Below are positions 4,070 to 19,457 of a stretch of DNA of 33,242 nucleotides, piece by piece. The translations under genes and the position numbers were made by a program. Source of the DNA: an uncultured bacterium. GTDB lineage: Bacteria > Bacillota_I > Bacilli_A > RF39 > UBA660. The notes under the pieces were generated by a model. That model was given only the letters and a program-made list of their open reading frames with translations. It did no database searches and was not told where the DNA came from. The stretch lies in assembly GCA_949296705.1 (NCBI GenBank), contig CASFOW010000077.1, positions 1 to 33,242 of the forward strand, given 5' to 3'. The stretch's first letter is position 1, and each line of letters opens with the position of its first letter.

Positions 4070-5170
4070 TCAATTATTTATATCTTTTTGATAAATCCTA
4101 TTTATACAAAAGTTAGGTTTACCGTTATCAAAATCAAAAGTATGAAATGAATCCCCTAAACAATATTTCCAATCTGGACAGTTTCTACACTGTTCTGATT
4201 TTGTTCGGTTATTATTTCTAAATAATTGGAATTTATTTTCCCATACTTCTACAAAATTATCATTTTTTATATTTCCTTGAATAAATTCTTTTCTTCTTTC
4301 GACATTAGGGCAGATAAAGATATCGCCATTACTTAGAATACTTGCGACATAGAGTCCGGCAACACAAGAAAAGTAAGTATCTCGTAATTCTTTTTCTAAA
4401 GAAAGACCTAAGTAATGACTACAGCCATATTCTACGTTGATGATATTTTCTGCGCGTTTTTCTTTAATAAAAGAAAATAAATATTGATATTCCTCTTTAT
4501 CTAATAGAATTTCTTGATTTTCTTTTGCTCGACCAATTGGATCTACATTAATTACTCGCCAAGAGACTACATTTAACTCTTTCATCAACTGATATAGAGC
4601 TTCTAGTTCATGAAGATTTTTCTTATTAGCAACAGTGGTGACTTGAACAATTTTAATAGAAGGGACTCGTTGTAATTTTTTTATGTTTGTAATAATTCGT
4701 TCAAAAGAGCCTGGTACTTGACGAAAGCTTTCATGCGTTTCTTTCAAGCCATCTAAACTAATAGAAATGGTCTCCATATTAGTTTGATTCATCTTTTCTA
4801 GAATCTCATCGGTAATTAACATCCCATTAGAAGTCATTCCCCAATGGAAACCTAAGTGGTTGGCATAATCCATGATTTCGAATAAATCTTTTCTAACTAG
4901 AGGTTCTCCTCCGGTAACATTTAATACAATATTAGTCGCGTTATAATGTTTAGAAATATTTAGTAATGTTTTTTTCAACGCTTCGGCACTTATTTCTTCT
5001 TCGGGAATAAAATCTCCACAACTACTTCCACAATGATGGCATCTAGCATTACATCTAGAAGTTACTTCTAAGAATAGATCTTTTAAAATAGGTTTTTCAT
5101 ATAGTTTTTGTCGATAGTCATATAATTGTTCTAAATTTTTCTTCTTGATTTCTTGGATTCTTTCCTCCAT
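4070..5170 (-). CDS. Radical SAM enzyme with SPASM domain
   Basis: 366 aa. The radical SAM cluster motif CxxxCxxC is C40-C44-C47 (CNARCHHCG), with one more Cys at 51; GGEP (87-90) is the SAM-binding motif. A C-terminal SPASM-type cysteine set for auxiliary Fe-S clusters includes C250, C269, C287, C328-x2-C331-x5-C337 and C355. Enzymes of this class generally modify peptides (thioethers, C-C crosslinks, epimerisation) or mature protein radicals. The start is supported by AGGTG 7 nt upstream. It is flanked at 21 nt by the VirD4-like ATPase and at 25 nt by the zinc-ribbon gene. I found no short precursor-like ORF in the operon, so the substrate may be a neighbour protein or encoded elsewhere. 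The ORF ends TGA TAA. Confidence 0.9.
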   Translation of the reverse strand: MEERIQEIKKKNLEQLYDYRQKLYEKPILKDLFLEVTSRCNARCHHCGSSCGDFIPEEEISAEALKKTLLNISKHYNATNIVLNVTGGEPLVRKDLFEIMDYANHLGFHWGMTSNGMLITDEILEKMNQTNMETISISLDGLKETHESFRQVPGSFERIITNIKKLQRVPSIKIVQVTTVANKKNLHELEALYQLMKELNVVSWRVINVDPIGRAKENQEILLDKEEYQYLFSFIKEKRAENIINVEYGCSHYLGLSLEKELRDTYFSCVAGLYVASILSNGDIFICPNVERRKEFIQGNIKNDNFVEVWENKFQLFRNNNRTKSEQCRNCPDWKYCLGDSFHTFDFDNGKPNFCINRIYQKDINN

Positions 5171-5191
5171 CCCTACACCTACTTCATTTAT

Positions 5192-6484
5192 TTACTCTTC
5201 AATTTTAAATTGTTCTAATTCTGATTTTTGGTCTTTATTTTGATAATAAGCTTCTTGCTTGGTTAACTCTTCAAGCTTATCATCTATTTTTTTTATCAAT
5301 TCTTGAGTATCAAAAGCTTCCATCATCTTATCATGACGAATCTGATGTACTTTTTCTTTTAAATCAAAACATTTAATGATTCTTTTTCCGTAACTTGGAT
5401 AAACAATTGAGGTTTGGGAAATAAGTACTTGTTCAAAATCTTTTTCGTATTTTTCTTCTTCATCTCCTATTTCTATTTTGATATCATGATTTCTAATCTC
5501 GATTATGTCTCCAACTCTTAACATATATTTTCCGTAAATAGAACTTAATTCTGATAAGGAACGGCTGGCAATATAGACTTTTATATTTCTAGCAATACAA
5601 GATGTTAAAATATTTACTAAATCTGGACATAGTTCAATACTATCGAAATTATCTAGTAGAAAATGAAATCTTGTATTTATTTTTTGGTCAATTAATCTAG
5701 AATATAATTGTTCAATAAACATAGTAGCTATTGTATTTAACAAACTATTTTCATCCCTAGCAATTACAATAAATGCAGTTGGTCTATTCACCAATGAATC
5801 AATATCAAAAGTTGTGTAATTCATCATTTGCGATAAATTCTCTCTAACTACATATACCCCTAATCGTTGTCTTGCGACTGATAGGATACTATCTCTCGTC
5901 TCTTTAGGCGCTAAAACTGTAGTGGATGCAAAAATATAGGCATTAGAAGTTTTACTTTTCGTATTAAAATACTCATTTAGGTAAACAGAACCCCCTATTT
6001 TTTCTACTGCTTGATTAAACATATTTGCTATACTATTGAAATTGATTTCTTCACTAGTACCATCCTCAAATAAACTAAGTGTCATTCCCGTAAATATATC
6101 TGATGCGGCATTATCCCAGAATGGGTCTTGAACTTGTTTTTCATAGAAACAAACTTTTCCAATTTTTTCTAAATATTCTTGAGCTTTATCTTTTTTTCCC
6201 GCTTGATATAGTTGATAAGGATACCATAAAGGATTCCATCCCTCACTCTTATCTGGTTCTCTTAAATTTAAGATGATTGTCTGATAACCATTTGCCTTTA
6301 ATTTTTCCTGATATTGATGTAAATACTCTTCTTTTGCGTCTAGAATCAATAGATTTTCTTTTTTCTCGATAATTTTATCTACCATAGGAAATAATACATT
6401 GGTTGTTTTTCCTGATGAAACATTCCCTTCGATAATTAAGTTTTGTTGGCGATTAAATAATTTTTCTAATATTTCCTTTTTCAT
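5192..6484 (-). CDS. Soluble VirD4/TraG-like ATPase
   Basis: 430 aa. Walker A is at 20-28 (GNVSSGKTT), followed by LLILDAKEEY, and by WNPL and DPFWDNAASDI, all characteristic of the VirD4/TraG coupling-protein family of type IV secretion. The Walker B strand reads FHFLLDNFDS (273-281): the usual DE is DN, so the catalytic glutamate appears replaced by Asn279. LSELSSIYG (310-318) matches the family's sensor-like region. There is no N-terminal transmembrane pair and the C-terminus is short and acidic, so it is probably cytosolic. ATG 6484 overlaps the MerR gene by 32 nt. No relaxase, VirB4 or other conjugation gene is nearby, arguing against a role in conjugation. Family assignment is good; function unknown. 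Confidence 0.75.
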   Translation of the reverse strand: MKKEILEKLFNRQQNLIIEGNVSSGKTTNVLFPMVDKIIEKKENLLILDAKEEYLHQYQEKLKANGYQTIILNLREPDKSEGWNPLWYPYQLYQAGKKDKAQEYLEKIGKVCFYEKQVQDPFWDNAASDIFTGMTLSLFEDGTSEEINFNSIANMFNQAVEKIGGSVYLNEYFNTKSKTSNAYIFASTTVLAPKETRDSILSVARQRLGVYVVRENLSQMMNYTTFDIDSLVNRPTAFIVIARDENSLLNTIATMFIEQLYSRLIDQKINTRFHFLLDNFDSIELCPDLVNILTSCIARNIKVYIASRSLSELSSIYGKYMLRVGDIIEIRNHDIKIEIGDEEEKYEKDFEQVLISQTSIVYPSYGKRIIKCFDLKEKVHQIRHDKMMEAFDTQELIKKIDDKLEELTKQEAYYQNKDQKSELEQFKIEE

Positions 6485-6863
6485 AATTTCTTCTTAATAC
6501 TCTCTCCTTTTTTCTTTCTTTTCTCTTGATGTAACTTTGATTATTTTGCATATCTCTTTGCATTTGATTTACTTTAGCGATTTTTAAATTCAGTAAATAT
6601 ATTTTTTCTTTGAATTCTACTTTTTTCTTTTCTAGGATCTCTTCATCTAAATTATCTTTATACTCTATAATTTCATCGAGAGTAAAGTCTAATGTTTTCA
6701 ATAACTTAATGACTTTGCATTCTCTTATATTATCTTCGCTGTAATATTTATAACCAGTCCAAGCATCGATTTCACTAGGGACTAATACACCATATTCCGC
6801 ATAATATCTAAGTGTTCTAACCGGAATATCTACGATTTTGGAAAACTCACCAATTTTATACAT
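6453..6863 (-). CDS. MerR-family transcriptional regulator, short form
   Basis: 136 aa. Residues 1-70 are a classic MerR winged helix-turn-helix: YKIGEFSKIVDIPVRTLRYY, then a wing with GYKYYSEDN and the following helix. Residues 75-110 form the antiparallel dimerisation helix. After that there is only a basic tail (RKERKKERVLRRNYEKG) and no effector-binding domain such as GyrI-like, so ligand sensing must use the dimer helix, the tail or a partner. Two ribosome sites (AAGGAGG and AAGGAGTG) precede ATG 6863. It is the first gene of the operon, and its own promoter has the 19-bp spacer and dyad typical of MerR targets, so autoregulation is expected. Confidence 0.88.
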   Translation of the reverse strand: MYKIGEFSKIVDIPVRTLRYYAEYGVLVPSEIDAWTGYKYYSEDNIRECKVIKLLKTLDFTLDEIIEYKDNLDEEILEKKKVEFKEKIYLLNLKIAKVNQMQRDMQNNQSYIKRKERKKERVLRRNYEKGNIRKII

Positions 6864-7914: not shown

Positions 7915-10332
7915 TTATTCTTCTTCTAAATCCAATTCTATTTTTTCCACTTCATAGTCTTTATCAATTAACTGCATGGTTAAATTATCAATAAACAAAG
8001 TAGCCTTAAAATCTTTTATTGAGTCATTAATGGCTTCTTTTAATTCTTTATTTACTTTTATTTCTAAATTTTTAATTGGTGTTTTTAATGACACATTATG
8101 ATTGGTTTTTACACCGCGAGCTTGGCTAATGATATTCATCATGAGATCCCCATTCTTGATTTCCTTTTCAAAAGAATAATTTAACTCTTTGATTTCTGTT
8201 AGATGAATAGACTTATCTTCGTGATACAATTCTTGATAAATTTCTTCGGTAATGAATGGGAAGAAAATACTAAAATCTTGTAGTAATTTATAAAGTAATG
8301 TATAGACTGTCTTTTGACCAGAATAGCGAGGAGTTTCTCCGAATTCCTCAGGGCGGTACAACCGATGTTTGACAATTTCAATGTAGTTATCACAGAAATT
8401 CCAGAAGAATTTTTCTAAAGTATTTAGAGCAAGTCCCACTTCGTATTCATCTAGATAGCGGAGAAAGTTTTTCTCCATTTCTTGGAAGCTTCCTAAGATC
8501 CACTTATCAATATATTCATATTCTGTGAACGGTTTATCTGTATAATCTGAAAGATGCATCTCAATAAACTTAGCGACATTCCAAAGTTTATTAATAAGTT
8601 TCTTGCCCCGTAATAACGTTTCTTCACTAAAGACAATATCGGTTCCTAATCTACCGGAAGCTGCCCAGTAGCGAATGACATCCGCAGAATATTGGTCGAT
8701 TAGGGCAAGTGGTTCCACTTTACTGTTTCCTTTACTCTTACTGATTTTTTCACCTTTACTTGCCATAACGAATCCAGAAATCATTACATTATCCCAAGGC
8801 CTCATACCAAAATGATAAAAACTCTTTACGATGGTGTAGAAATCCCATGTTCTAATAATCTCTGAAGCATTAGTTCTTAAACTCATCGGTTTTAAAAGAG
8901 CTTCATAATTGTCTTTTTCTCCATAGTGCATGTTGATTAATGGTGTTACGGATGAAGTTGCCCAAGTATCCATAACATCACTTTCTGGAACAAACTCCTG
9001 GCACCCACATTTTGGACAACAATTAACTGGAGGTTTATCCGTTAATGGATTGACTGGTAAATCTTCCTGTTTAGCAAGAATTACCTCACCACATTCTTTA
9101 CAATACCAAACTGGAAATGGTACACCAAAATATCTTTGTCTAGAGATACACCAATCCCAGGCGACATTATTTACCCATTCATCATACCTAGCATGCATGT
9201 AATCAGGATGCCATTTTATTTCATTTCCAATTCTAATAAAGTCCTCTTTATGATTCATAATATCGATGAACCACTGATTCATTACCGCATATTCTACTTC
9301 TTTACCACAGCGTTCATGCGTTTGTACTTCATGCTCTAGTTCTTCGATTTTTTCAATATAGCCACCATTTTGTAGATCTTCGATAATCTTCTTTCTTGCC
9401 TCTTTTATTTTCATACCACCGTAATTAGGAACAGAATCAATAATTCTTCCATCATCTGTGAAAATATATTTTAATGGGAGATTGTATTTTTTCCACCATT
9501 CAATATCGGTTTGATCGCCAAAAGTACAACACATAACGACACCGGTTCCCTTATCAATAGCGACTTTTTCATCTGCCATGATAGGTACTTCTACATCAAT
9601 TACCGGTATGTGAGCAGTTTTTCCAATTAAAGATTTATGTTTTTCATCTTCTGGATTCACAAAGACACATACAATAGCTGGTAATAATTCTGGTCTCGTT
9701 GTCGCAATAGTAAATTCTTTACCATCCTCTACCGTTTTAAATTTAACATAATTGAAGGTCGTTTTAATGGTTTTTGTCTCTAGTTCAGCTTGCGCAATTG
9801 AGGTTAAACATTCATTACACCACAAAGCTGGACTTTCTTTATGATAACAATGTCCTTTATTAATTAAATCTAAGAACGATAATTGGCTTACTTTTATAGT
9901 TGATGGACTTACTGTTTTATAATGAATAGCCCAATCAGTACTGACCCCCATCTTACTAAATAATTCTTGGAATTCTGCTTCATATTTATCTGTTGTATCA
10001 TAGCATAATTTTGAGAATTCTTCTCTTCCTATTTCAGCGGCTTTTTTTCCTTGTTCTTTTTCAACTAGACGTTCACTAGGTAACCCATTATCATCAAAAC
10101 CAAACGGATAGAAAACATTATATCCTCGTAAACGTTTATATCTTGCAATCATTTCTGTCTGTGAATAAGAGAAAATATGACCAATATGAATACTACCACT
10201 TACTGTTGGAGGTGGGGTATCAATGGAGTATATTTTTCTTTTATCTGGTTTAAACGCATAGATTTTATTTTCTTGCCAGTAGTTTAACCACTTAGCTTCT
10301 TTTTCATTTGCATTATATTTTTTATCTAACAT
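7915..10332 (-). CDS. valS: Valyl-tRNA synthetase, archaeal-type
   Basis: 805 aa. Charges tRNA-Val in the cytoplasm. The class I motifs are present: HIGH as HIGH at 49-52 (SGSIHIGHIFSY) and KMSKS as KISKS near residue 530. The CP1 editing domain carries ATTRPELLPAIVCVFVNPED; zinc-type cysteines occur as CNEC and as CKEC...CPKC. The motif after HIGH reads FDDNGLPSER where common bacterial ValRS has a DHAGIATQ-like sequence, and the protein lacks the C-terminal coiled coil of bacterial ValRS (about 880 aa). Both features match the archaeal/Rickettsia-type enzyme, suggesting ancient transfer. It is the last gene of the valine T-box operon, 16 nt after the broken small gene. The ribosome site is weak (GTGAAGAAAT), suggesting some coupling. 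Confidence 0.95.
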   Translation of the reverse strand: MLDKKYNANEKEAKWLNYWQENKIYAFKPDKRKIYSIDTPPPTVSGSIHIGHIFSYSQTEMIARYKRLRGYNVFYPFGFDDNGLPSERLVEKEQGKKAAEIGREEFSKLCYDTTDKYEAEFQELFSKMGVSTDWAIHYKTVSPSTIKVSQLSFLDLINKGHCYHKESPALWCNECLTSIAQAELETKTIKTTFNYVKFKTVEDGKEFTIATTRPELLPAIVCVFVNPEDEKHKSLIGKTAHIPVIDVEVPIMADEKVAIDKGTGVVMCCTFGDQTDIEWWKKYNLPLKYIFTDDGRIIDSVPNYGGMKIKEARKKIIEDLQNGGYIEKIEELEHEVQTHERCGKEVEYAVMNQWFIDIMNHKEDFIRIGNEIKWHPDYMHARYDEWVNNVAWDWCISRQRYFGVPFPVWYCKECGEVILAKQEDLPVNPLTDKPPVNCCPKCGCQEFVPESDVMDTWATSSVTPLINMHYGEKDNYEALLKPMSLRTNASEIIRTWDFYTIVKSFYHFGMRPWDNVMISGFVMASKGEKISKSKGNSKVEPLALIDQYSADVIRYWAASGRLGTDIVFSEETLLRGKKLINKLWNVAKFIEMHLSDYTDKPFTEYEYIDKWILGSFQEMEKNFLRYLDEYEVGLALNTLEKFFWNFCDNYIEIVKHRLYRPEEFGETPRYSGQKTVYTLLYKLLQDFSIFFPFITEEIYQELYHEDKSIHLTEIKELNYSFEKEIKNGDLMMNIISQARGVKTNHNVSLKTPIKNLEIKVNKELKEAINDSIKDFKATLFIDNLTMQLIDKDYEVEKIELDLEEE

Positions 10333-10348
10333 ATTTCTTCACTACTTT

Positions 10349-10792
10349 CTATTTATTTTTTAAACCGCTTTTTCCTACTAGATATTTACGGTTTATTTCC
10401 TTTTTTATTTTATCCATTCCATAGAAGTTTTCCCATTTAACTTCATCACTTATTTTTTGTAAATTATACGCTCCAATCACACTATATTTACTAAGTATCA
10501 TTTCATTTTGATAAACCCATTCTAATTGTCTATCGGTTATTCTTTCTGGTAAATAGAAAATGACAAGTCCAGATGAATCTTCACTTTTTACTACCATGTG
10601 ACCAAGTTCTGCTATTTTACATGGGGCTTCTTGATAATCATCGGATTTAAATTGAAAACCCTACTGATACATATCCGAAAACTCTTGAATCTTTTTGGTA
10701 TGATTCTCACCGAGAGCTACTTCTTTTTCAAATAGTGGCTGAATTATCTGGCCTTCATCGGGAATTATCCATAATTTTCCTCTATAATTCAT
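10349..10792 (-). pseudogene. Small gene of unknown function interrupted by an amber codon
   Basis: A 147-codon reading frame starting at ATG 10792, overlapping the HD gene's end by 11 nt (ATGAATTATAG), which is typical of translational coupling. It reads MNYRGKLWIIPDEGQI... for 43 codons, hits TAG at 10661-10663, then stays open in the same frame to 10349. The downstream part contains HMVVKSEDSSGLVIFYLPER and a W-E-N-F-Y-G-M motif. TAG is a genuine terminator elsewhere in the window (the HD and SWIM genes end in it), so this is a nonsense mutation, a read error, or a gene now surviving only as an 82-aa internal-start product from ATG 10597. I do not recognise the family. Confidence 0.6.
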
Positions 10793-11531
10793 GATGAACT
10801 CCCTCATTAATCGTATCGTAACAAACCTCTCTTACTTTTTGCCACAACTTCTCACTATCTTCTGATACCTCAATTGTACTAATAAACAAGTCAAAGTTAT
10901 CTGTCTCTACTAATATATCCAAGCTCTCATCAAAATTAAAATCAAAGATAAAAGCTAAAATGGATAATACCGCATCAGATTTACTTTTATTTTCTTTGAT
11001 ATCCAAAGGTTTTCTTTCCTTGAAGTTCTTTAATACCGTCTGGGTTACTTCCTCTGCTTTAAATACATAGTGATAATGTGTAGCATATTGTTTAAAGATA
11101 TCGACTTTATCCATATCTCTAATCATTGAGACAAATAATTTTTCCTTCCCCGTTAATGAAGGAACTTCTAACTTATTATGATATTTTATCGCTAATTCCA
11201 TGATTTTATCATACTTATCTTCTTCAATAAAATCTCGGATATGACCCTCTTCAAACAAATAGATACAACTTTGATCGGCATGGTCAACGGTTTTCTTATC
11301 TGATAATTTTCCATAAATCCTAAATTGCTCAAAACGACCAATATCGTGTAAGAGTCCAATTATCTTTGCTAGAATAATTTCTTCCTTGGATAAATTAAGC
11401 CGAAAAGCAAGTTCTGCCATTAAATTCGCAACTTCTAAACTATGTTTCTTCTTAAGAATAATCATTTCTTCTTTTTGATCATAATTTTCTACATATTGAT
11501 TAAACACTTCTTTTGCTCGTTCATAATCCAT
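10782..11531 (-). CDS. HD-domain phosphohydrolase
   Basis: 249 aa. An HD metal-dependent hydrolase: H30 (KKKHSLEVA), H62-D63 (LLHDIGRFEQF) and a later aspartate (RDMDKVD) give the canonical H...HD...D set. HD proteins hydrolyse nucleotides or other phosphate esters; the substrate here is not evident. It is the first gene behind a valine T-box. The ribosome site AAGGAGG lies within the T-box terminator stem, and the T7 run of that terminator abuts ATG 11531. Its placement in a valine-starvation-controlled unit with valS suggests a link to tRNA or nucleotide turnover, which is inference. Confidence 0.85.
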   Translation of the reverse strand: MDYERAKEVFNQYVENYDQKEEMIILKKKHSLEVANLMAELAFRLNLSKEEIILAKIIGLLHDIGRFEQFRIYGKLSDKKTVDHADQSCIYLFEEGHIRDFIEEDKYDKIMELAIKYHNKLEVPSLTGKEKLFVSMIRDMDKVDIFKQYATHYHYVFKAEEVTQTVLKNFKERKPLDIKENKSKSDAVLSILAFIFDFNFDESLDILVETDNFDLFISTIEVSEDSEKLWQKVREVCYDTINEGVHHEL

Positions 11532-11573
11532 AAAAAAACTCCTCCTTATCTTTTATTCTTAATAAGGACGAGT
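11532..11573 (-). terminator. T-box intrinsic terminator overlapping the HD-gene ribosome site
   Basis: Minus-strand arms ACTCGTCCTTAT (11562-11573) and ATAAGGAGGAGT (11538-11549) pair with one G/G mismatch and are followed directly by seven T residues and then the ATG. The 3' arm contains the AAGGAGG ribosome site, so folding would both stop transcription and hide the start signal. The 5' arm shares TCCTT with the antiterminator. Confidence 0.8.
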
Positions 11574-11779
11574 TAAACCCGCGGTACCACCTTAATTTAC
11601 TCTAAAAAAAGAGTACCCTCAATTTTAGAACTAACGTATCTTTTCTACGGAATTACCTACTTATTGTTCAATAATTCTACTCCATCGCTACCTTCCAAAG
11701 ATAATTCTATTCATTTTCACCAACCATGAATTCTCTAGCAAAATTATACTTTGTACTCCTCGACTTCTTTGTATTTCGT
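11538..11779 (-). promoter_or_regulatory. T-box riboswitch leader, valine-specific (GUA specifier)
   Basis: The T-box core AAGGTGGTACCGCGG is at 11579-11593. Upstream, stem I has the conserved AGTA before helix CAAAG, the AGAGA element, a GGTTGGTGAAAA distal region, then CTTTG-GAA-G-GTA-G. Placing the specifier after GAA-N, as in known T-boxes, gives GTA, a valine codon (11689-11691), consistent with valS downstream. The antiterminator pairs AAGG with TCCTT and competes with the terminator at 11532-11573. It controls the HD gene, the broken small gene and valS. Specificity rests on pattern placement; reading one base earlier would give GGT (Gly). Confidence 0.9.
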
Positions 11780-11785
11780 GTTTTT

Positions 11786-11814
11786 ATTATAGACTAATTT
11801 TTTTACTTTGTAAA
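11786..11814 (-). promoter_or_regulatory. Sigma-A promoter of the T-box operon
   Basis: TTTACA (11809-11814), 17-bp spacer, TATAAT (11786-11791) on the minus strand. The predicted start, near 11779, is just ahead of the T-box stem I, as expected. The region from here to 12080 (about 265 bp) holds no gene or structure I can support. Confidence 0.8.
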
Positions 11815-12089
11815 TAAGTTATCTGTAGTTCCTTAATTTAAAAGGATAGATATTGACTATCTATTCCTTCTAACTTACAATTAATTCAAATTATAATTTT
11901 TATTTTTAGGTGAAAAATCTCCGCACTTATTCTACACTAACCACTATTTATGAGAACTTAATTTTTAAAAGTTTTAATTTTTCTACTACCGGAAACTTAC
12001 TTTTTAATTCAACCATTCATTTTATTTTCATACAAAGAAAGGCCTATACAGATACTTAATTTTTTCATATGATACTATAGGTGAAAATG

Positions 12090-12311
12090 ATGTTTAAAAA
12101 AGGACAAGGGCATGGTTTTTTCTGCCGATGTGAAGCTTGTAAATTTAAAAGAAAATCTAGTATTTTTTATATGGGCTGTCTTCTTAGTTTATTAGTTATT
12201 TTATTCTATCAATGTCTTTTTGCGATATTCGTTGTTTCCCGATTTAATTCTTTTTTATGCTTTTTATTTTTAATACTAGTTATTATTGGCTTCATCCGGA
12301 TTATCTTTTAA
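12090..12311 (+). CDS. Small membrane protein with a CxCxxC motif
   Basis: 73 aa, and the only plus-strand gene I support. Start ATG 12090 (or the adjacent ATG 12087) is preceded by AGGTG at 12079-12083. The N-terminus is basic and contains CRCEAC (CxCxxC), which could bind metal. Two hydrophobic segments follow (about 27-49 and 53-73), so a two-span membrane protein is likely. Real-gene evidence: a proper ribosome site, a coherent signal-like layout, and a 17-bp perfect hairpin terminator starting at its stop. A -10-like TATGAT (12068-12073) with TATACA 17 bp upstream is possible but would leave almost no leader. Family unknown. Confidence 0.55.
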   Translation: MFKKGQGHGFFCRCEACKFKRKSSIFYMGCLLSLLVILFYQCLFAIFVVSRFNSFLCFLFLILVIIGFIRIIF

Positions 12312-12368
12312 AAAACTAAATAGAATGTTTAGGTTTAGAATTTACCTTATTCATTCTATTTAGTTTTT
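12311..12368. terminator. Bidirectional terminator between convergent genes
   Basis: A perfect 17-bp inverted repeat (12311-12327 and 12352-12368, AAAAACTAAATAGAATG and its complement) with a 24-nt loop and T-runs on both strands. It follows the plus-strand small gene directly and also contains the last codons and TAG stop of the ysxE-like gene, so it can end transcription from both sides. Confidence 0.85.
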
Positions 12369-13215
12369 CTTGTAATTGGTAGGCAGTATCGGTAATCGTA
12401 AATACTTGTTTAATTTTTTGAATCTCTGTTTTTTTCATTTCTAATTTTTCTGGTAATAGAGTTAGGGCTAGAAAAAGATCAATTTCTTCTTCTTTTAAAC
12501 TGTACTTGGTTTGATAGATATCTAACAGATCAAAGATATCAATTTTTTCTTTATTATTTTGATAAAGACTTAATAGATCATAGACTGGCAAATTAATTTT
12601 TGCTTTACCCCAACTAATTAGATATAGATCATGATTTTCAATTAAATGTTCTTTTTCTAACGCACCATGAGTCATCGCATAACGAAGTTTCTTACTTATT
12701 TTTACTTTTTGATACCACGACTCGATTCTTTTTTTACTTTCTCTAATATTTTGATATAAAGTAGAAATGTTTCTGATTAATAAGTAATGACTAGGTGACA
12801 TATAAACTTCGCTTTCAATCATGTTCTGTAACCCAGAATAATAATTATATAGATAATCTTGGCGATCGATGATTTCTTCATAGATCTTTTTTATTTGATC
12901 AATATCTACGTTTTTATAAAATGTGGTCTTGGTATGTAATAAACTGACAAGGTAGATTAAATCTTCTATTCGTTGTTCAACTGGTACTTCAAAGTCATCG
13001 ATATATTCAGTTATTTCGTAAGGATCGGAATTATTAGTTAAAGTAGAAGGAAAATTATGGAAATTACGTGTTTTTAGATATTCATAAATATTGGTGTTGT
13101 TTTCTTCTTTTAGGCAATAGCGATTATTCTCGGTAGAGATAATATCTACTTTTTTCTTTTTTTGATAACGTAAAGCCTTTAAATTGTATTTTTCTAATTC
13201 TTGTCGTTTATTCAT
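12316..13215 (-). CDS. Spore-coat kinase-fold protein, YsxE/CotS-like
   Basis: 299 aa. The layout resembles the CotS/YsxE/YutH branch of aminoglycoside-phosphotransferase-fold proteins: an N-lobe, a LLHTKT segment at about 92, then THGALEKEHL near 180 where active kinases have HGDxxxxN, and LISWGKAKINLPVYDLL where kinases have an xIDxD motif. The catalytic Asp, Asn and metal-binding Asp are thus missing, so it is probably a pseudokinase. It starts at ATG 13215, overlapping the SpoVID-like gene by 8 nt without its own clear ribosome site, so translation is likely coupled. In B. subtilis ysxE directly follows spoVID and precedes valS, as here. Sequence similarity alone is weak; context carries much of the call. 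Confidence 0.65.
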   Translation of the reverse strand: MNKRQELEKYNLKALRYQKKKKVDIISTENNRYCLKEENNTNIYEYLKTRNFHNFPSTLTNNSDPYEITEYIDDFEVPVEQRIEDLIYLVSLLHTKTTFYKNVDIDQIKKIYEEIIDRQDYLYNYYSGLQNMIESEVYMSPSHYLLIRNISTLYQNIRESKKRIESWYQKVKISKKLRYAMTHGALEKEHLIENHDLYLISWGKAKINLPVYDLLSLYQNNKEKIDIFDLLDIYQTKYSLKEEEIDLFLALTLLPEKLEMKKTEIQKIKQVFTITDTAYQLQEKLNRMNKVNSKPKHSI

Positions 13216-14119
13216 GTTGACAAGGTATAATTACTTTACTACCAATTTTTATATTTTCTAGATCGTTATACGGGACTAAGTCATCACGAGTAGTTTTATA
13301 CTTTTCGATAATGGAATCTACGGTATCATTTTCTCTAACGATATAAACATGATAGGTAACGAAAGTCTCATCACTAGATGCGATAGCATTAAAGATAGAA
13401 CTCATTTTAGATTCTTCTTTAGGAGCTTCTTTTTTCGGCATGGAAGATTGATGAATTTCTTCTTTTGATTGTGTAGAAGCAGTAATTATATCACTTGAAG
13501 TTTGTTGATATTTTTTTCCTTCTTGATCATAAATTTCTTTATTTTTAGAAATTTCTTGGGTTAATTTAGCCTCGATTTCTTGTTCTAAATCGCTTTTATT
13601 GGCTACTCCCGGAAAGTCTTCTTCTCCACCAATCGTATCTGATATATTAGATAGTTCCAATTCGTCGATTGCTTCTTCTTTTTCTAACGGTTCGATTTCT
13701 ATTTTTTCTTTCTTTTCTTCTAGTTCGATTGGAATTTTTTCTACTGTCTTACGAATAACTTCTTCATCTAATGAAATATCTTCTTTAGGTAAAGGCTTTT
13801 CTAAAACATTACTGATTTCTAATTCTATATTAATTTTTAAATCTTCTTCGTTAATAATTTCAAAATAAAAGTCATCAATCGTAATCGTGCAGTTGGAAAT
13901 ATCGTATTTATTATCTACTTCTATGGTAAATGGTAAATTATAGTGAAACTCTTCCTCTATTTGGCTTGCTTCATGCATTTTATATTTACCATCAAGTAGG
14001 ATGTCTCCTTCGATAGTATTTCCTTCCACTTCAAGGTTGTGTTTGGTTTCAATATCGGTGATCTCGGCGATCATCGTTTTAAATTTAATTGTCTTCGTAA
14101 AAGGTATTATTTTTTTCAT
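13208..14119 (-). CDS. spoVID: SpoVID-like spore-coat morphogenetic protein with LysM domain
   Basis: 303 aa from ATG 14119, chosen because GAGGG lies just upstream; a 24-codon extension is hydrophobic and overlaps the promoter region. The N-terminal ~120 residues form a beta-rich domain (IPFTKTIKF..., TIEGDILLDGKY..., FTIEVDN...) like the SPOCS-type domain of SpoVID/SipL. The middle (about 120-250) is acidic, low complexity and Glu/Lys/Ser rich. The C-terminus is one LysM module (about 257-301: VYIVRENDTVDSIIEKY ... GSKVIIP). SpoVID encases the forespore in coat and binds via LysM. Next come the ysxE-like gene and, further, valS, the B. subtilis order. A sigma-E-like promoter lies upstream. 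A generic LysM protein is the alternative. Confidence 0.72.
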   Translation of the reverse strand: MKKIIPFTKTIKFKTMIAEITDIETKHNLEVEGNTIEGDILLDGKYKMHEASQIEEEFHYNLPFTIEVDNKYDISNCTITIDDFYFEIINEEDLKINIELEISNVLEKPLPKEDISLDEEVIRKTVEKIPIELEEKKEKIEIEPLEKEEAIDELELSNISDTIGGEEDFPGVANKSDLEQEIEAKLTQEISKNKEIYDQEGKKYQQTSSDIITASTQSKEEIHQSSMPKKEAPKEESKMSSIFNAIASSDETFVTYHVYIVRENDTVDSIIEKYKTTRDDLVPYNDLENIKIGSKVIIPCQHE

Positions 14120-14140
14120 CTTATCCCTCATTTCTATTTC

Positions 14141-14170
14141 ACTATATGAGAATAATGAAAAAAACATGCA
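14141..14170 (-). promoter_or_regulatory. Possible sigma-E-type promoter of the spoVID-like gene
   Basis: Minus-strand GCATGTT (within 14163-14170) and CATATAGT (14141-14148), 14 bp apart, resemble the sporulation sigma-E elements KMATATT and CATACAMT with three mismatches in total. It sits between the upstream gene's terminator and the ribosome site of spoVID, giving a leader of about 15-20 nt. No good sigma-A promoter is visible there. Suggestive only. Confidence 0.35.
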
Positions 14171-14177
14171 CAATGAA

Positions 14178-14210
14178 AAAAGAAAATACATTCAATTCAT
14201 ATTTTCTTTT
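14178..14210 (-). terminator. Terminator after the DUF285 surface-protein gene
   Basis: Perfect 11-bp stem AAAAGAAAATA / TATTTTCTTTT (14200-14210 and 14178-14188) with an 11-nt loop and a following T-run, 6 nt past the stop at 14216. It separates this gene from the spoVID-ysxE unit. Confidence 0.8.
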
Positions 14211-14215
14211 CCCTT

Positions 14216-16331
14216 TTAAGCACTAACAACAACACTACCAGACGCAAGTTTATCTTGTAACCACGAAATAGCATCACTATTTGTAATCGTTATAACAATA
14301 TCAGCATTAACTCCACCAAACATGGCTTCAGAATCTACAATACTAGAATAATTAAAATTACCAAAATTAATCGCTTTTAAATTTCTACAAGCAGAAAACA
14401 TCCACTTTGTATTTTGTACTTTAGACATATCAAAATTACTCAAATTAACACTGACTAAATTCCAACAAGAATCAAACATTGTCTGCATATTAGTCACTTC
14501 AGGTGTACTAAAATTAGAAAGATCAAGATTAGTTAATGCTGTACAATGACTAAACATCCCATTCATATTCGTTACATTTGTAGTCATAAAGCTACTGACA
14601 TCAAGGGATGTTAAGGAAGTACAATAAGCAAACATAAAACTCATATCTGTCACATTTTCTGTATTAAAATTACTTAGATTAAGGGAAATTAACGATTGGC
14701 AATAATCAAACATACGAGTCATATTTAGTACTTGCGATGTATCAAAATGACTAAGGTCTAATGTTAATAAGCTATTACAATCATAAAACATCTCCGTCAT
14801 ACTAGTTACATTGGAAGTTACAAAGTTAGAAATGTTTAATTCCTTTAAGGCATAACATCCGTAAAACATACGGTACATTGTATTTACACTAGAAGTGTTA
14901 AAACTAGATAGGTCTAAATTTTGAATAGATGCACAACCTGAAAACATACTATCCATTCTTAGTACTTTTGAAGTATTAAAACTACTTACATTTAAATTCA
15001 ATAAGTTCGTACATCCTGAAAACATGGCACGCATATCCGTTACTACAGTAGTATTAAAGTTCGCCAAATTCAAGTTCTTTAATTGAACACAGTTGTTAAA
15101 CATTTGCTCCATATTTTCTACTTTAGAAGTATCAAAACTGGAAATATCTACCCATTCTAATACTGAATTATTGTAAAACATTCCACTCATATCGGTAACT
15201 TGACTAGTATCAAAATGAGAAAGAGCAATTCCTGTTAAACCGGTATTTTCAAACATCCAAGCCATTCTCGTTACTTTGGAAGTATCAAAATTACTAATGT
15301 TTAAATCCGATAACTTACTACACTGAGCAAACATCCCCCACATGTCATTCACATTAGAAGTATCAAAACTAGACAAATCCAAACTAGTCAGCTCTCCGCA
15401 TCCCGCAAACATATTCCACATACTCGTTACTTGAGAAGTATTTAATACTCCTATATTTTCAATTTCTCTTAATTTAATAAAACCTTGAAAGAACCTAATT
15501 CCTTCCTCTAACCAAATTTCGTCATTTCCTTGAAAGTAAACCGTATAAGTTCCCGCTTCATCTTGGTTTTCCGCTAAATAAACCATACAGCTACCATCCT
15601 GATTAGGAGAAAAGTCCAATGATGCTTCCGCACCTTCAATAGGAGTTATTCGATTTTGTAAGATGATTTTTGTAACTGATGCTTTCTGTTCATCGGTTTT
15701 TACAGGACTTTCTCCTTCCTTATAATGATAAATAGACTGCTTACTAACAGCTTCTACCCGGTCGTATGTATCGACTTGAATCTTAAAAGACAAATCGCTT
15801 CCCAGCATCTCTATTTTGAATACCACCACTTTCTAGTAGCCCTACTCTTAAAATGAAGCTTTGACTTTCTCCCTTTTTTAAAGGAATATCGGTCTTAATC
15901 ACTAATTCTTTATCTCCAGATAAAAAACCGCTTAGTGAAGAAAAACTACCTGATTTTAATAATGTTTCATTTTGATAACTAGAATCTGTTTGATAAATGG
16001 CTCAGACTAAATCATTAGAAAAGGTATCTTGATTTTCTTTCGTTAACGATATCTCACTAAAAACCATATTATAATTTATGTCTTGATTACTGGTGTTTCT
16101 AACTGTAAATTGATGACCAGGCGAGGATTCTAATGATTCTAGTGGTTGTGGTAAAGCATTTTCTATTAGAATATCTTGGCCTGTCTCATAAGTAATCTCT
16201 AATGTATCTAACATCACAATTTGTGGTTCAGAAGTAACAGAAACCGCAAAATAGGCATAACTTCCACCCATAATAAAAGTAATACCAAGTAAACTTAAAA
16301 CTAATATCCATATCTTTGTACTATTTTTCAT
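14216..16331 (-). pseudogene. BspA-like DUF285 surface protein, broken by a stop and a frameshift
   Basis: One gene in three pieces. From ATG 16331 (ribosome site GAGGTG) comes an uncleaved signal/anchor (WILVLSLLGITFIMGGSYAYF) and a TasA/camelysin-like beta domain, as far as TGA at 16002-16004. The same frame stays open after the TGA (AIYQTDSSYQNETLLKSG...) to about 15800. There, one base must be skipped to join the 14216-15829 frame at MLGSDLSFKIQVDTYDRV. That frame, 537 aa, holds 15 DUF285 repeats and a short C-terminal cap. No cell-wall sorting motif is visible, so the N-terminal helix would anchor it. The intact protein would be a surface or adhesin-like protein of about 690 aa. The repeat part has no signal of its own, so it is probably not made or exported now. 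Confidence 0.75.
14306..15472 (-). repeat. Array of 15 DUF285 (BspA-like leucine-rich) coding repeats
   Basis: Fifteen imperfect repeats of 24-26 codons with consensus L-x-x-L-D/N-L-S-x-F-D/N-T-S-x-V-T-x-M-x-x-M-F-x-x-C-x-x (residues about 120-508 of the repeat ORF). The MF...C spacing is regular in most copies; the first and last copies are the most divergent. Such arrays in Mycoplasma and related gut bacteria make solenoid surface proteins and can expand or contract by recombination. Confidence 0.9.
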
Positions 16332-16363
16332 ACTTCACCTCGTATTCTTATCATCCTATTATT

Positions 16364-16392
16364 AGTATACCAAAATCTAAATTACTTTTCAA
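16364..16392 (-). promoter_or_regulatory. Sigma-A promoter of the surface-protein gene
   Basis: TTGAAA (16387-16392), 17-bp spacer, TATACT (16364-16369), followed by a short leader and GAGGTG ribosome site ahead of ATG 16331. Confidence 0.7.
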
Positions 16393-16411
16393 AATCTTTA
16401 TATTTTGAAAA

Positions 16412-16439
16412 AAGAATGAGTTTTTATCTTCTCATTCTT
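16412..16439 (-). terminator. Terminator of the lon transcription unit
   Basis: AAGAATGAG (16431-16439) and CTCATTCTT (16412-16420) form a perfect 9-bp stem with a 10-nt loop and T-tail on the minus strand. It begins at the stop codon of the gene downstream of lon. Confidence 0.8.
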
Positions 16440-17125
16440 CATCTTTTCAACAAGCGTACTAAAGTTTTTCCATGTTCTAAATTTTTTAATCGCTGAATCG
16501 TTTTCTTAGCTTTTTTCTTTACCCAGTCTCTCATCTTTGCGTGGTATACTAATAATTCATTTATACTCTCTATTAGAAAATTGCGATACTCTTCTTGTTC
16601 TTTTAATATATCCGGATATTCATTTAGTAATAAATTTATAGTAGAAAGAAAATAGGCTATATTCATAATTGGTAATTCTTTATTTTGTTCGAAAATTACT
16701 TTTAAATAATAAGGATCCCACTCAACAGTAGCCATTACTTCTTCGACAGTATTGCCAAAAGTTTTTGAAAATAACAACTCATGTTTTCTTCCTTCTTCTT
16801 TTAGCCAAATATTTCTTCTTTTCAATAACTCAAACTCTTCTAAATTTTGATAGGTATCGGCATGATGAGTAATATGTTGTTTCATCGCAAATAAATCTTT
16901 ATTTTCGTAGTAACAAAATCTTATGGCGCAGATGACTTCAAGTAGCTTTTGATTTAATTCATCTGTCATTAAGAAGAAATCTTCATGATCAATTACTTGA
17001 CATAGTGCTTTACACATCATAATTTGTTGATGTTCTTCTTGATTTTGTTCTAAAATCTCACTACTAGATAAGAAAAGAAATTGATTTTTAATCGAGTAAT
17101 AATTGAATATTTCTTGGATCGACAT
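16439..17125 (-). CDS. Helical protein of unknown function downstream of lonA
   Basis: 228 aa from ATG 17125 (MSIQEIFNYYS), preceded by GAGGGAAGAAG; an in-frame start 12 codons earlier overlaps lon further and has no better ribosome site. It overlaps the lonA end by 38 nt, so the two are co-transcribed and probably coupled. The protein is mostly alpha-helical and charged, with aromatic-rich segments and a strongly basic C-terminus (about 200-228, WVKKKAKKTIQRLKNLEHGK). No membrane segment, metal site or catalytic motif is visible. In B. subtilis the gene after lonA is ysxC, a GTPase; this is not one, as it lacks a P-loop. Function unknown. Confidence 0.65.
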   Translation of the reverse strand: MSIQEIFNYYSIKNQFLFLSSSEILEQNQEEHQQIMMCKALCQVIDHEDFFLMTDELNQKLLEVICAIRFCYYENKDLFAMKQHITHHADTYQNLEEFELLKRRNIWLKEEGRKHELLFSKTFGNTVEEVMATVEWDPYYLKVIFEQNKELPIMNIAYFLSTINLLLNEYPDILKEQEEYRNFLIESINELLVYHAKMRDWVKKKAKKTIQRLKNLEHGKTLVRLLKR

Positions 17126-19457
17126 ATTTCTTCTTCCCTCTTTTTTCTTTGAATAAGACATGTTGAATATCTAGGTATCGATCTACTAAGATAAAATGAA
17201 TGTCTGCTGTTACTTCTTTCGGAATTTCATCGAGGTCTTTTTCATTCTGACGAGGAATAAAAATTGTTCTAATCCCATTACGATGAGCACCGATTACTTT
17301 TTCCTTTAAGCCTCCAATTGGTAGTACTTTACCTCTTAAAGTCATTTCCCCTGTCATCGCAATATTGGTTTGAATCGGGGTGTTTGTTACTAAAGATAAT
17401 AGTGTTGTAGTTAGTGTTACTCCCGCACTTGGACCATCCTTTGGTACTGCTCCTTCCGGAACATGAATATGAATATCATTTTTTTGAAATACTTCAGAAT
17501 TGATTTTAAATTTTGCGCTATTCGATTTTAGATAATCTAAGGCTAAATGAGCGGATTCGCGCATGACATCTCCTAAACTACCGGTTAAGATAATATCCCC
17601 TTTTCCTGGAAACATTACGGCTTCAATCGCTAAAATATCACCACCAAACGGTGTATATGCTAAGCCGTTCACAATACCTACTCTCTCCATAATATCATTT
17701 TCATTCCAAAAGTATTTTTGTTTCCCTAAATATTTTTCCAGATTATAAATCGTAATATCGTAGTTTTTTTCACTGATATTCATAATTTTATCAGTTACTA
17801 CTTTACGTAATATTGATGCAATGTTTCGCTCTAAGTCCCTAACTCCGGCTTCTTTTGTATAATTACGAATGATTTCTAGGAACGCTTCACGATCAAAATG
17901 TACAGTGTCTTTTTTTAAGCCGTGTTCTTTTTTTTGCTTAGGTAATAAATAATTCTTGGCAATATCTAATTTTTCATACTCAGTATAAGATGAAAGTTCG
18001 ATCATCTCCAAGCGATCCCTTAATTCAGTAGGGATTTGTTCATAATAATTGGCAGTCGTAATGAACATAACATTACTTAAATCATATTCTTCTTCAATAT
18101 AGTGATCGACAAAAGCTTTATTTTGTTCTGGATCTAACACTTCTAATAAACTACTAGCTGGATCTCCCTTGATGTCCTTAGTCATCTTATCAATTTCATC
18201 AATGATAAAGACAGGATTTTTAGTACCAGCTTTTTTCATTCCTTGGATAATTAAGCCTGGCGCAGCCCCGATATAAGTTCTTCTATGACCGACGATTTCT
18301 GCTTCATCGTTAATTCCTCCAACTGAAATCTTCGTACACTTTCGGCCTAAACTTTCGGCAATGCTTTTCGCCAAAGTCGTTTTTCCCACTCCCGGAGGAC
18401 CTACTAAACAAAGAATCGGACTTTTCAAATTATGGGTATTCTGCTTTACAGCTAAGTATTCAATTATGCGGTTTTTTACTTTGTCTAAGCCGTAATGAGA
18501 ACGATCTAATACTTTTTTTACTTTATGTAGATCTTCATTATCAACCGTTTCTATCTCCCAAGGTAAATCCAATAACCAATCGATATAGTTACGAATAATT
18601 CCGGCATCTGGGGCATTAGGGCTACAAGTTTCATAACGATGAATCTCTAGTTCTAATCGTTCTTCAATTTGTTTTGGATATTTTCCCGTTTTAATTTTTT
18701 CTCTTATTTTTTCTATCTCACTATCTTTATCGCTAATATCCCCTAATTCTTCTTTGATAATTCTAATTTTTTCGCGAAGCACATATTCTTTTTGATTTTT
18801 CTCCATTTCTAAGGATAACTTTTCATCGATTTTCTTTTCAATTTCTAAAATTGCTAAATCGTTTTGGATGTCTTCCATGATCATTTCGCTACGACGAATA
18901 GAATCTGTCTCCCAAATATAGCTTGCTTTTCGGTTATAGTTGACTGGTAAGGTTGGTGCGATTAAGTCGGTAATTTTCTCTAAACTATTTACACCAATTA
19001 AACTATGGATAATATTATTACTATAAGAATAATCATCAATATATGTTTCTAATAAATTCATAATCTTCCTGGAATAAGCAATTTCCTCTTTCGGATTATG
19101 ATTTTCTTTACTAATTTCTTCGATTGAGGCACTTAAAATTTTATCTTCTTCTTCAAGTTCTAAAATCTTTACCCGTCTTAAGCCATGCATCAATAGTCTA
19201 GTCTTCCCATTAGGCATATCCATTCTCATTTTTATTTGGGATACCAAGCCAATTTTAGGTAATTCTTTTATGGTATATGGTTCCCTACTATCACTACTAG
19301 GATTTATGATCAGGATATTACTATCAAAACAACCCTCTGCAACAGAAACAATCTGTTTTTCTACCAAGGTATCAAATTCAAGGCGTAACTCACTACCTGG
19401 AAAAAGAACCATATCTCTCAAAATCAAAATTGGTAATTTCTCTTGATTATTTTGCAT
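17088..19457 (-). CDS. lon: ATP-dependent protease LonA
   Basis: 789 aa, full length for LonA. Cytoplasmic AAA+ protease degrading misfolded and regulatory proteins. In order: N-terminal substrate-binding domain (1-200, beginning LPILILRDMVLFPG), a helical linker, the AAA+ module with Walker A GPPGVGKTT (about 354) and Walker B FIIDEIDKM, then the protease domain with the catalytic Ser in PKDGPSAGV (about 676) and Lys in KEKVIGAHRNG (about 718). The ribosome site is AGGAGG, 11 nt from ATG. It has its own promoter and follows tig, as in B. subtilis (where clpX and lonB intervene). No CIRCE element was seen in the short leader. Confidence 0.97.
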   Translation of the reverse strand: MQNNQEKLPILILRDMVLFPGSELRLEFDTLVEKQIVSVAEGCFDSNILIINPSSDSREPYTIKELPKIGLVSQIKMRMDMPNGKTRLLMHGLRRVKILELEEEDKILSASIEEISKENHNPKEEIAYSRKIMNLLETYIDDYSYSNNIIHSLIGVNSLEKITDLIAPTLPVNYNRKASYIWETDSIRRSEMIMEDIQNDLAILEIEKKIDEKLSLEMEKNQKEYVLREKIRIIKEELGDISDKDSEIEKIREKIKTGKYPKQIEERLELEIHRYETCSPNAPDAGIIRNYIDWLLDLPWEIETVDNEDLHKVKKVLDRSHYGLDKVKNRIIEYLAVKQNTHNLKSPILCLVGPPGVGKTTLAKSIAESLGRKCTKISVGGINDEAEIVGHRRTYIGAAPGLIIQGMKKAGTKNPVFIIDEIDKMTKDIKGDPASSLLEVLDPEQNKAFVDHYIEEEYDLSNVMFITTANYYEQIPTELRDRLEMIELSSYTEYEKLDIAKNYLLPKQKKEHGLKKDTVHFDREAFLEIIRNYTKEAGVRDLERNIASILRKVVTDKIMNISEKNYDITIYNLEKYLGKQKYFWNENDIMERVGIVNGLAYTPFGGDILAIEAVMFPGKGDIILTGSLGDVMRESAHLALDYLKSNSAKFKINSEVFQKNDIHIHVPEGAVPKDGPSAGVTLTTTLLSLVTNTPIQTNIAMTGEMTLRGKVLPIGGLKEKVIGAHRNGIRTIFIPRQNEKDLDEIPKEVTADIHFILVDRYLDIQHVLFKEKRGKKKYVDPRNIQLLLD

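Follow-up and report, generated by a model that had tools for sequence, protein, structure and literature searches.

In the Firmicutes, T-box leaders of valS and other synthetase genes that act at transcription (Rfam RF00230) combine an aptamer, a specifier loop and a bulge with a switch between antiterminator and terminator. T-box control is described as most widespread for ileS, leuS and valS (PMC2494555). Reviews divide T-boxes into transcriptional and translational kinds that differ in their kinetic demands, and translational T-boxes are described as having mostly a short Stem I (PMC7583486). In actinobacterial ileS T-boxes, a hairpin sequestering the Shine-Dalgarno (SD) sequence is reported 'instead of terminators' (PMC1262725). 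Barrick and Breaker (2007) described predicted dual attenuation of transcription and translation in metabolite riboswitches, taking as their criterion a terminator hairpin at most 10 nucleotides (nt) from the start codon (PMC2258182). Here we analyse a leader in a 33,242-nt contig (CASFOW010000077.1, assembly GCA_949296705.1, forward-strand positions 1 to 33,242; hereafter the window) of an uncultured bacterium of the RF39 lineage of Bacilli. Its minus strand carries a whole element, consisting of a T-box leader, a terminator hairpin, an HD-domain hydrolase gene and valS. We conclude that this is probably a T-box riboswitch that responds to tRNA-Val and acts through a dual expression platform, in front of an HD hydrolase-valS operon.

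The aptamer and switch are those of the Firmicutes synthetase T-boxes; the differences are that the first gene here encodes the HD hydrolase, that the 3' arm of the terminator doubles as the ribosome site for this gene, and that the gene's start codon adjoins the U-tract. As in the platforms of Barrick and Breaker, the hairpin lies within the stated distance, ending 5 nt before the ATG, and a U7 tract is present; those platforms bind small metabolites, and that paper is by its title confined to metabolite-binding riboswitches, whereas the ligand here would be a tRNA (PMC2258182). Translational T-boxes such as those of actinobacterial ileS share an alternative hairpin that sequesters the SD, to which the window hairpin adds a terminator U-tract (PMC1262725, PMC7583486). 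The B. subtilis vmlR leader is reported to join transcription attenuation to a proposed SD sequestering in escaped transcripts, but it does so with two hairpins (SL-3 and SL-4) and a ribosome-stalling input, whereas a single hairpin would serve both purposes here (PMC9226507). A literature search over titles and the beginnings of abstracts found no T-box with a terminator-embedded SD and no HD gene under a T-box, although comparative T-box papers may mention one. The element and its genes, in order of transcription, are as follows.

11786..11814, minus strand: predicted promoter-like site upstream of the T-box, TTTACA and TATAAT 17 nt apart (consensus scan, 11 of 12 matches)
11561..11778, minus strand: T-box leader, Stem I to antiterminator (Rfam RF00230, 136.1 bits)
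11689..11691, minus strand: specifier codon GUA (Val), at the specifier-loop position of the RF00230 alignment and invariant in 36 of 36 leaders
11563..11594, minus strand: antiterminator, helices A1 (UAAGG/CCUUA) and A2 (GCGGGU/ACUCGU), from a segment fold with conserved A1/A2 pairs
11586..11589, minus strand: T-box bulge UGGU, read from the sequence, which would pair with a tRNA 3' end ACCA (discriminator A)
11537..11574, minus strand: predicted terminator and SD-sequestering hairpin of 13 base pairs plus a single G.G mismatch (fold and comparison)
11541..11547, minus strand: SD sequence AAGGAGG, read from the sequence, within the terminator 3' arm (11550-11537)
11532..11538, minus strand: U7 tract, read from the sequence, with the ATG (11531) adjoining
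10782..11531, minus strand: HD-domain protein, 249 amino acids (aa) (PF01966, 37.1 bits)
10349..10792, minus strand: small gene between the HD gene and valS, with an in-frame stop; its 3' part is an 82-aa open reading frame (ORF)
7915..10332, minus strand: valine-tRNA ligase (NF009687, 1005.5 bits)

By all the features testable in sequence, the element is a T-box. The covariance model aligns from end to end (model positions 1-219 of 219; E 1.9e-30), well above its gathering score of 93. The 34-nt antiterminator segment folds at -7.6 kcal/mol, and its A1 and A2 pairs are retained in most or all of the 23 leaders compared below. The strand ACUCGUCCUUA (11573-11563) has two possible partners, one upstream in the antiterminator (-7.6 kcal/mol) and one downstream in the terminator (-15.0 kcal/mol). 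The two structures, which share this one strand, are predicted to be mutually exclusive, and three-way base changes among related leaders preserve both. The downstream hairpin, AACUC.UCCUUAUU / GAUAAGGA.GAGUU, is clearly more stable than shuffled sequence (mean -5.76 kcal/mol; z -4.34; none of 200 shuffles as good). A simple consensus terminator scan missed it; the rule of that scan wants a loop of 3-8 bases and the loop here has 10. The first two U of the T7 run close the base of the hairpin, which leaves five over. The sequence-only reading of this DNA had placed AAGGAGG in the terminator 3' arm and a T7 run immediately before the ATG. Both agree with what we find: the motif lies at 11547-11541 in a stem conserved across leaders, and the T run (11538-11532) is followed by an ATG beginning at 11531. 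That reading had also called the leader a valine T-box upstream of an HD hydrolase and valS, and these identities are borne out by the full-length match to RF00230, by the GUA specifier, and by the order PF01966, broken small gene, NF009687. The description was accurate throughout and lacked only the strand, which is the minus strand.

The T-box is predicted to be specific for valine. We counted specifiers in 36 leaders, all upstream of HD genes (25 with the layout seen in the window and 11 with a separate SD), by looking for GTAGC; no leader lacked GTAGC, and GUA was therefore present in every one. In the window's own genome (G000), the tRNA-Val(GAC) has discriminator A and all three tRNA-Gly found have U. 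The UGGU bulge fits an A discriminator and so matches tRNA-Val, not tRNA-Gly. An exact pattern for the reader of GUA, tRNA-Val(UAC), had matches in 11 of the 17 genomes of the genus.

Comparison across leaders also bears on the shared stem. We call a leader composite when the SD lies inside the terminator 3' arm and separate when it follows the terminator U-run. Twenty-six composite leaders were gathered, 15 by similarity to the window leader, 4 from a scan of HD loci and 7 from a pattern scan of the family; removal of a duplicate (L231, the same segment as L100) left 25 distinct leaders. L101 and L102, which have AAAGGA in place of GGAGG, were excluded from the pair count, leaving 23. Seven core positions (offsets -1, 0, 2, 3, 4, 5 and 6) are paired in all 23. 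The G.G mismatch is equally constant; in the antiterminator its G finds a partner in the C of GCG, again in 23 of 23. Offsets -2 and -3 are also paired throughout, including changes on both sides: C-G to U-A in two related loci at -2, and A-U to U-A in one locus at -3. The inner offsets 7 and 8 alternate among A-U, U-A, C-G and G-U, again with changes on both sides, and are paired in 19 and 18 of the 23. At two positions, three-way changes save both helices: G-C-G in 19 leaders against A-U-A in 2, and U-A-U in 14 against A-U-A in 2, with U-C-G in 2 leaders as the exceptions at the first position and seven loci of other kinds at the second.

The T run is T7 in 21 leaders, T6 in one and T8 in one, the spacing from SD to ATG is 9 nt in 20 and 10 nt in 3, and the loop between the arms is variable; in the seven pattern-scan leaders, which were chosen by GGAGG and a T-run, those features are not independent. 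As a yardstick, none of 100 listed GGAGG-N(3-10)-ATG sites of G000 (out of 360) has six or more T in a row, as counted by eye. The stem shared by terminator and ribosome site is, on this comparison, conserved in relatives, and the retention of the layout in 25 distinct homologous leaders speaks against chance. Among HD orthologues, the composite layout is retained down to about 44% protein identity.

In the genomes scanned, the layout also goes with one gene. G000 has 13 T-box matches; in all 12 others the SD follows the terminator U-run, and only in the window T-box does it lie inside. We searched 386 family genomes for a T-box motif, GGAGG, a T-run and an ATG; this returned 39 rows in 35 genomes, and the reversed control returned none. 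Read by eye, the rows divide into 13 composites and 26 in which a separate U-run comes ahead of the SD; every one of the 13 composites precedes the HD gene, and none stands before another gene. A slightly stricter pattern, applied to 392 genomes of the phylum, had the window as its sole match; 373 of these genomes are from other families, but every one of them belongs to the same class, and many are small. A looser pattern applied across the class matched in 48 of 296 genomes, mostly at chance ATGs after ordinary terminators; in most of the 30 loose-pattern loci that we read, either no long frame begins at the ATG or a start with its own SD follows closely downstream. Within the genomes scanned, the layout is tied to the HD gene and, with a canonical SD, is confirmed by comparison only in the window's family.

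A few leaders with related arrangements were seen in the course of these scans. Outside the family, L173 (G233) has a GNAT-like frame right after a T-box terminator ending AAGGACTTTTTTTATG, and this locus may be a candidate composite platform with a weaker SD. Within the family, G129 has a leader with GGAGGGGATTTTTTATG that also looks composite and is likewise a candidate. In L032 and L219 the gene behind the T-box encodes a small membrane protein (about 114 aa). The SD of L032, AAGGAGGAGTT, is near-complementary to its T-box strand, AACTCGTCCTTAA, but the two are parted by a separate terminator.

As anatomy, a valine T-box with a dual platform is well supported; from that anatomy we infer termination, translational repression, and tighter control of the HD protein than of the valyl-tRNA synthetase (ValRS). 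In the free RNA of the 25 composite leaders the SD is predicted to be paired (mean probability of being unpaired 0.19, chiefly at the mismatch G), and when the antiterminator is forced the predicted value rises to 0.59, with a range of 0.14-0.98. With charged tRNA-Val, ACUCGUCCUUA would pair with the downstream arm, and the hairpin and U-tract would halt transcription just before the AUG. Transcripts that leak through would retain the hairpin with the SD paired, and the HD gene should remain untranslated. When uncharged tRNA-Val is bound at both the specifier (GUA) and the bulge (UGGU), the shared strand would enter the antiterminator, permitting read-through and freeing the SD. The transcriptional half of this scheme is that of the established T-box mechanism. 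Only the HD gene would lie under both locks, because valS has its own start further downstream and would be under the transcriptional lock alone. The sequence-only reading had suggested control of both transcription and translation, a combination it thought less usual than synthetase-only T-boxes. Dual control is the best reading of the anatomy, with a shared stem that is real and conserved; this much of the suggestion stands, and its translational half is what the position of the SD would predict. The remark on rarity also agrees with our scans, in that canonical-SD composites within the family were seen only before the HD gene, although the operon still includes a synthetase.

Several results weigh against the dual reading. 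tRNA-Val(UAC) was not found in G000, an assembly that is 95% complete, perhaps through an assembly gap. The T-box strand CGUCCUU is inherently near-complementary to AAGGAGG, and some pairing with any nearby SD is therefore to be expected; accordingly, 4 of the 12 other T-boxes of G000 also have an SD predicted to be largely paired in the free RNA (probability unpaired 0.18 in L003, 0.36 in L006, 0.20 in L012 and 0.20 in L013). Low values in L008 and L011 are not counted, as they stem from a misassigned start codon; in these two, and in L004 and L010, whose starts were likewise misassigned, the SD follows the U-run. In L024 (0.20) and L101 (0.14) the SD remains closed in the model even with the antiterminator forced. 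L101 and L102 retain the terminator but have the weak SD AAAGGA, which may mean that the hairpin is more important than the SD. Of the 80 HD loci taken from named genomes, 23 are preceded by a T-box motif at a distance of up to 700 nt; 11 of these are composite and 12 have an ordinary separate SD (one of the latter, L119, with another gene first), so regulation of HD does not require the dual layout. Finally, a protein tree of 45 HD sequences puts 24 of 25 composites in one clade (support 96/96) with L101 outside; the tree needs two layout changes (one change in 14% of bootstrap trees), and the 24 main composite loci may represent one inherited event.

Much of this could be accommodated by a purely transcriptional T-box, in which compaction of the leader put the SD in the terminator arm, the read-through RNA held in the antiterminator by tRNA is translated at once, and the pairing has no regulatory effect. 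The near-complementarity, the separate layout of ordinary T-boxes and of about half of the T-box-preceded HD loci, the single clade and the weak SDs all fit such an account, as does the shortness of composite leaders (48-63 nt from T-box motif to ATG, against 63-102 nt, measured to the match start, in the 11 separate leaders). We nevertheless regard it as rather unlikely, since the layout persists to about 44% HD identity while loop length and outer pairs have changed, and since no composite was seen before any other gene in the 386 genomes scanned. A mainly translational T-box, in which the hairpin would sequester the SD, as it does ahead of actinobacterial ileS, and the U-run would be a mere spacer, would explain why the SD lies wholly inside the hairpin and why its spacing from the ATG is 9-10 nt in every leader counted. 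It is very improbable given the tract of 6-8 T in all 23 leaders, set against the 100 listed SD spacers of G000, none of which has six T in a row, and the full-length model match with a long Stem I, which fits the transcriptional kind as reviewed (PMC7583486). We rejected it as the principal explanation on the strength of the retained U-tract, the hairpin being no substitute for a terminator. A glycine T-box with specifier GGU can take support from a GGU that does exist in the window leader, overlapping GUA one base out of register. The base before GUA varies, however (G in 24, T in 9 and A in 3 of the 36 leaders), and GGU is therefore not a conserved specifier; the UGGU bulge mismatches the U discriminator of tRNA-Gly, and valS lies downstream. 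The glycine assignment was rejected by this comparison and is scarcely credible; a GGU specifier is the outcome that the sequence-only reading had named as fatal to its valine assignment, which thus withstands that test.

If the dual platform operates as proposed, it is tempting to speculate about its use. We suggest, tentatively, that a gene-specific double lock evolved in one clade of gut Bacilli, in which a single hairpin terminates transcription and hides the SD of the first gene only. One tRNA signal would then give a steep, leak-proof response of the HD protein and a milder one of ValRS, and the HD enzyme might serve to remove an alarmone or by-product that arises from the idle synthetase, for example diadenosine tetraphosphate (Ap4A). 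Ap4A is suggested here as a candidate substrate only.

The HD protein itself is likely a nucleotide phosphohydrolase. Residues H30, H62, D63, H84, H118, D139 and D141, forming an H...HD...H...H...D motif, are invariant in 35 HD homologues. The predicted structure has a pLDDT (predicted local distance difference test) of 96.1. A Foldseek search with this model gave no match at E <= 0.001, the best being a weak one to 3ccg (E 0.031); both 3ccg and 8jja, which we take to be YqeK-type, are within the top 13 Foldseek rows. A PDB sequence search with the HD profile gave no match at E <= 0.1. In structural alignment the best matches were other HD hydrolases, 2pq7 (Z 13.7, 158 residues, 3.7 A) and YpgQ (Z 12.6), and no chain named YqeK was among the 50 rows shown. 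The extended motif, which the window protein shares, has been linked to a metal site of the dinuclear type, with the Ap4A hydrolase YqeK as an example, and the structure named YqeK in that report, 2o08, is also within the top 13 Foldseek rows (PMC8177086). The window protein differs in length, with 249 aa against 187-195. The reason for its tighter control may be that it is an HD phosphohydrolase of the dinuclear kind, needed by the cell only when valine is scarce.

The surrounding genes offer some indications of how the operon was assembled. From 7915 to 19457 the window encodes Lon, further genes, a LysM protein, a YsxE-like protein, the T-box, the HD gene and valS, presumably resembling the B. 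subtilis order lonA ... spoVID-ysxE-valS. If such an order holds, the HD gene would be an insertion between T-box and valS. In L034 (G024), a family member whose T-box leads straight onto valS, a six-codon ORF after the U-tract overlaps the valS SD, and this ORF could be the remnant of a lost HD start. The small gene that is broken in the window is intact, at about 147-150 aa, in G013, G001, G007, G003 and G006. The synthetase also varies within the genus. A short ValRS of the type in the window, which we label archaeal-like as an assumption of ours, is the only one in G000, G013 and G001; G007 has one T-box operon in which the two types follow each other in tandem (L046, 1591-4005 and 4038-6272), and the remaining genus members in which a ValRS was found have the bacterial type alone. 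Within this one genus, then, one type of ValRS gene seems to have taken the place of the other at the same locus, with G007 looking intermediate.

Elsewhere in the window, 14216-15829 encodes a BspA/PARCEL-type surface protein (DUF285 and TIGR02167 repeats). At 4070-6863 a radical SAM/SPASM protein, a VirD4-like coupling protein (NF045973, below cut-off) and an overlapping MerR regulator lie side by side, possibly the remnant of a conjugative element.

In a T-box with a single dual-purpose hairpin, mutations in one and the same leader could set the transcriptional level apart from the translational one. It would also show how the T-box strand CGUCCUU, almost an anti-Shine-Dalgarno sequence, gives a transcriptional T-box a translational layer in few steps. 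Moreover, it would tie an uncharacterised HD hydrolase to valine starvation, offering a testable handle on its substrate.
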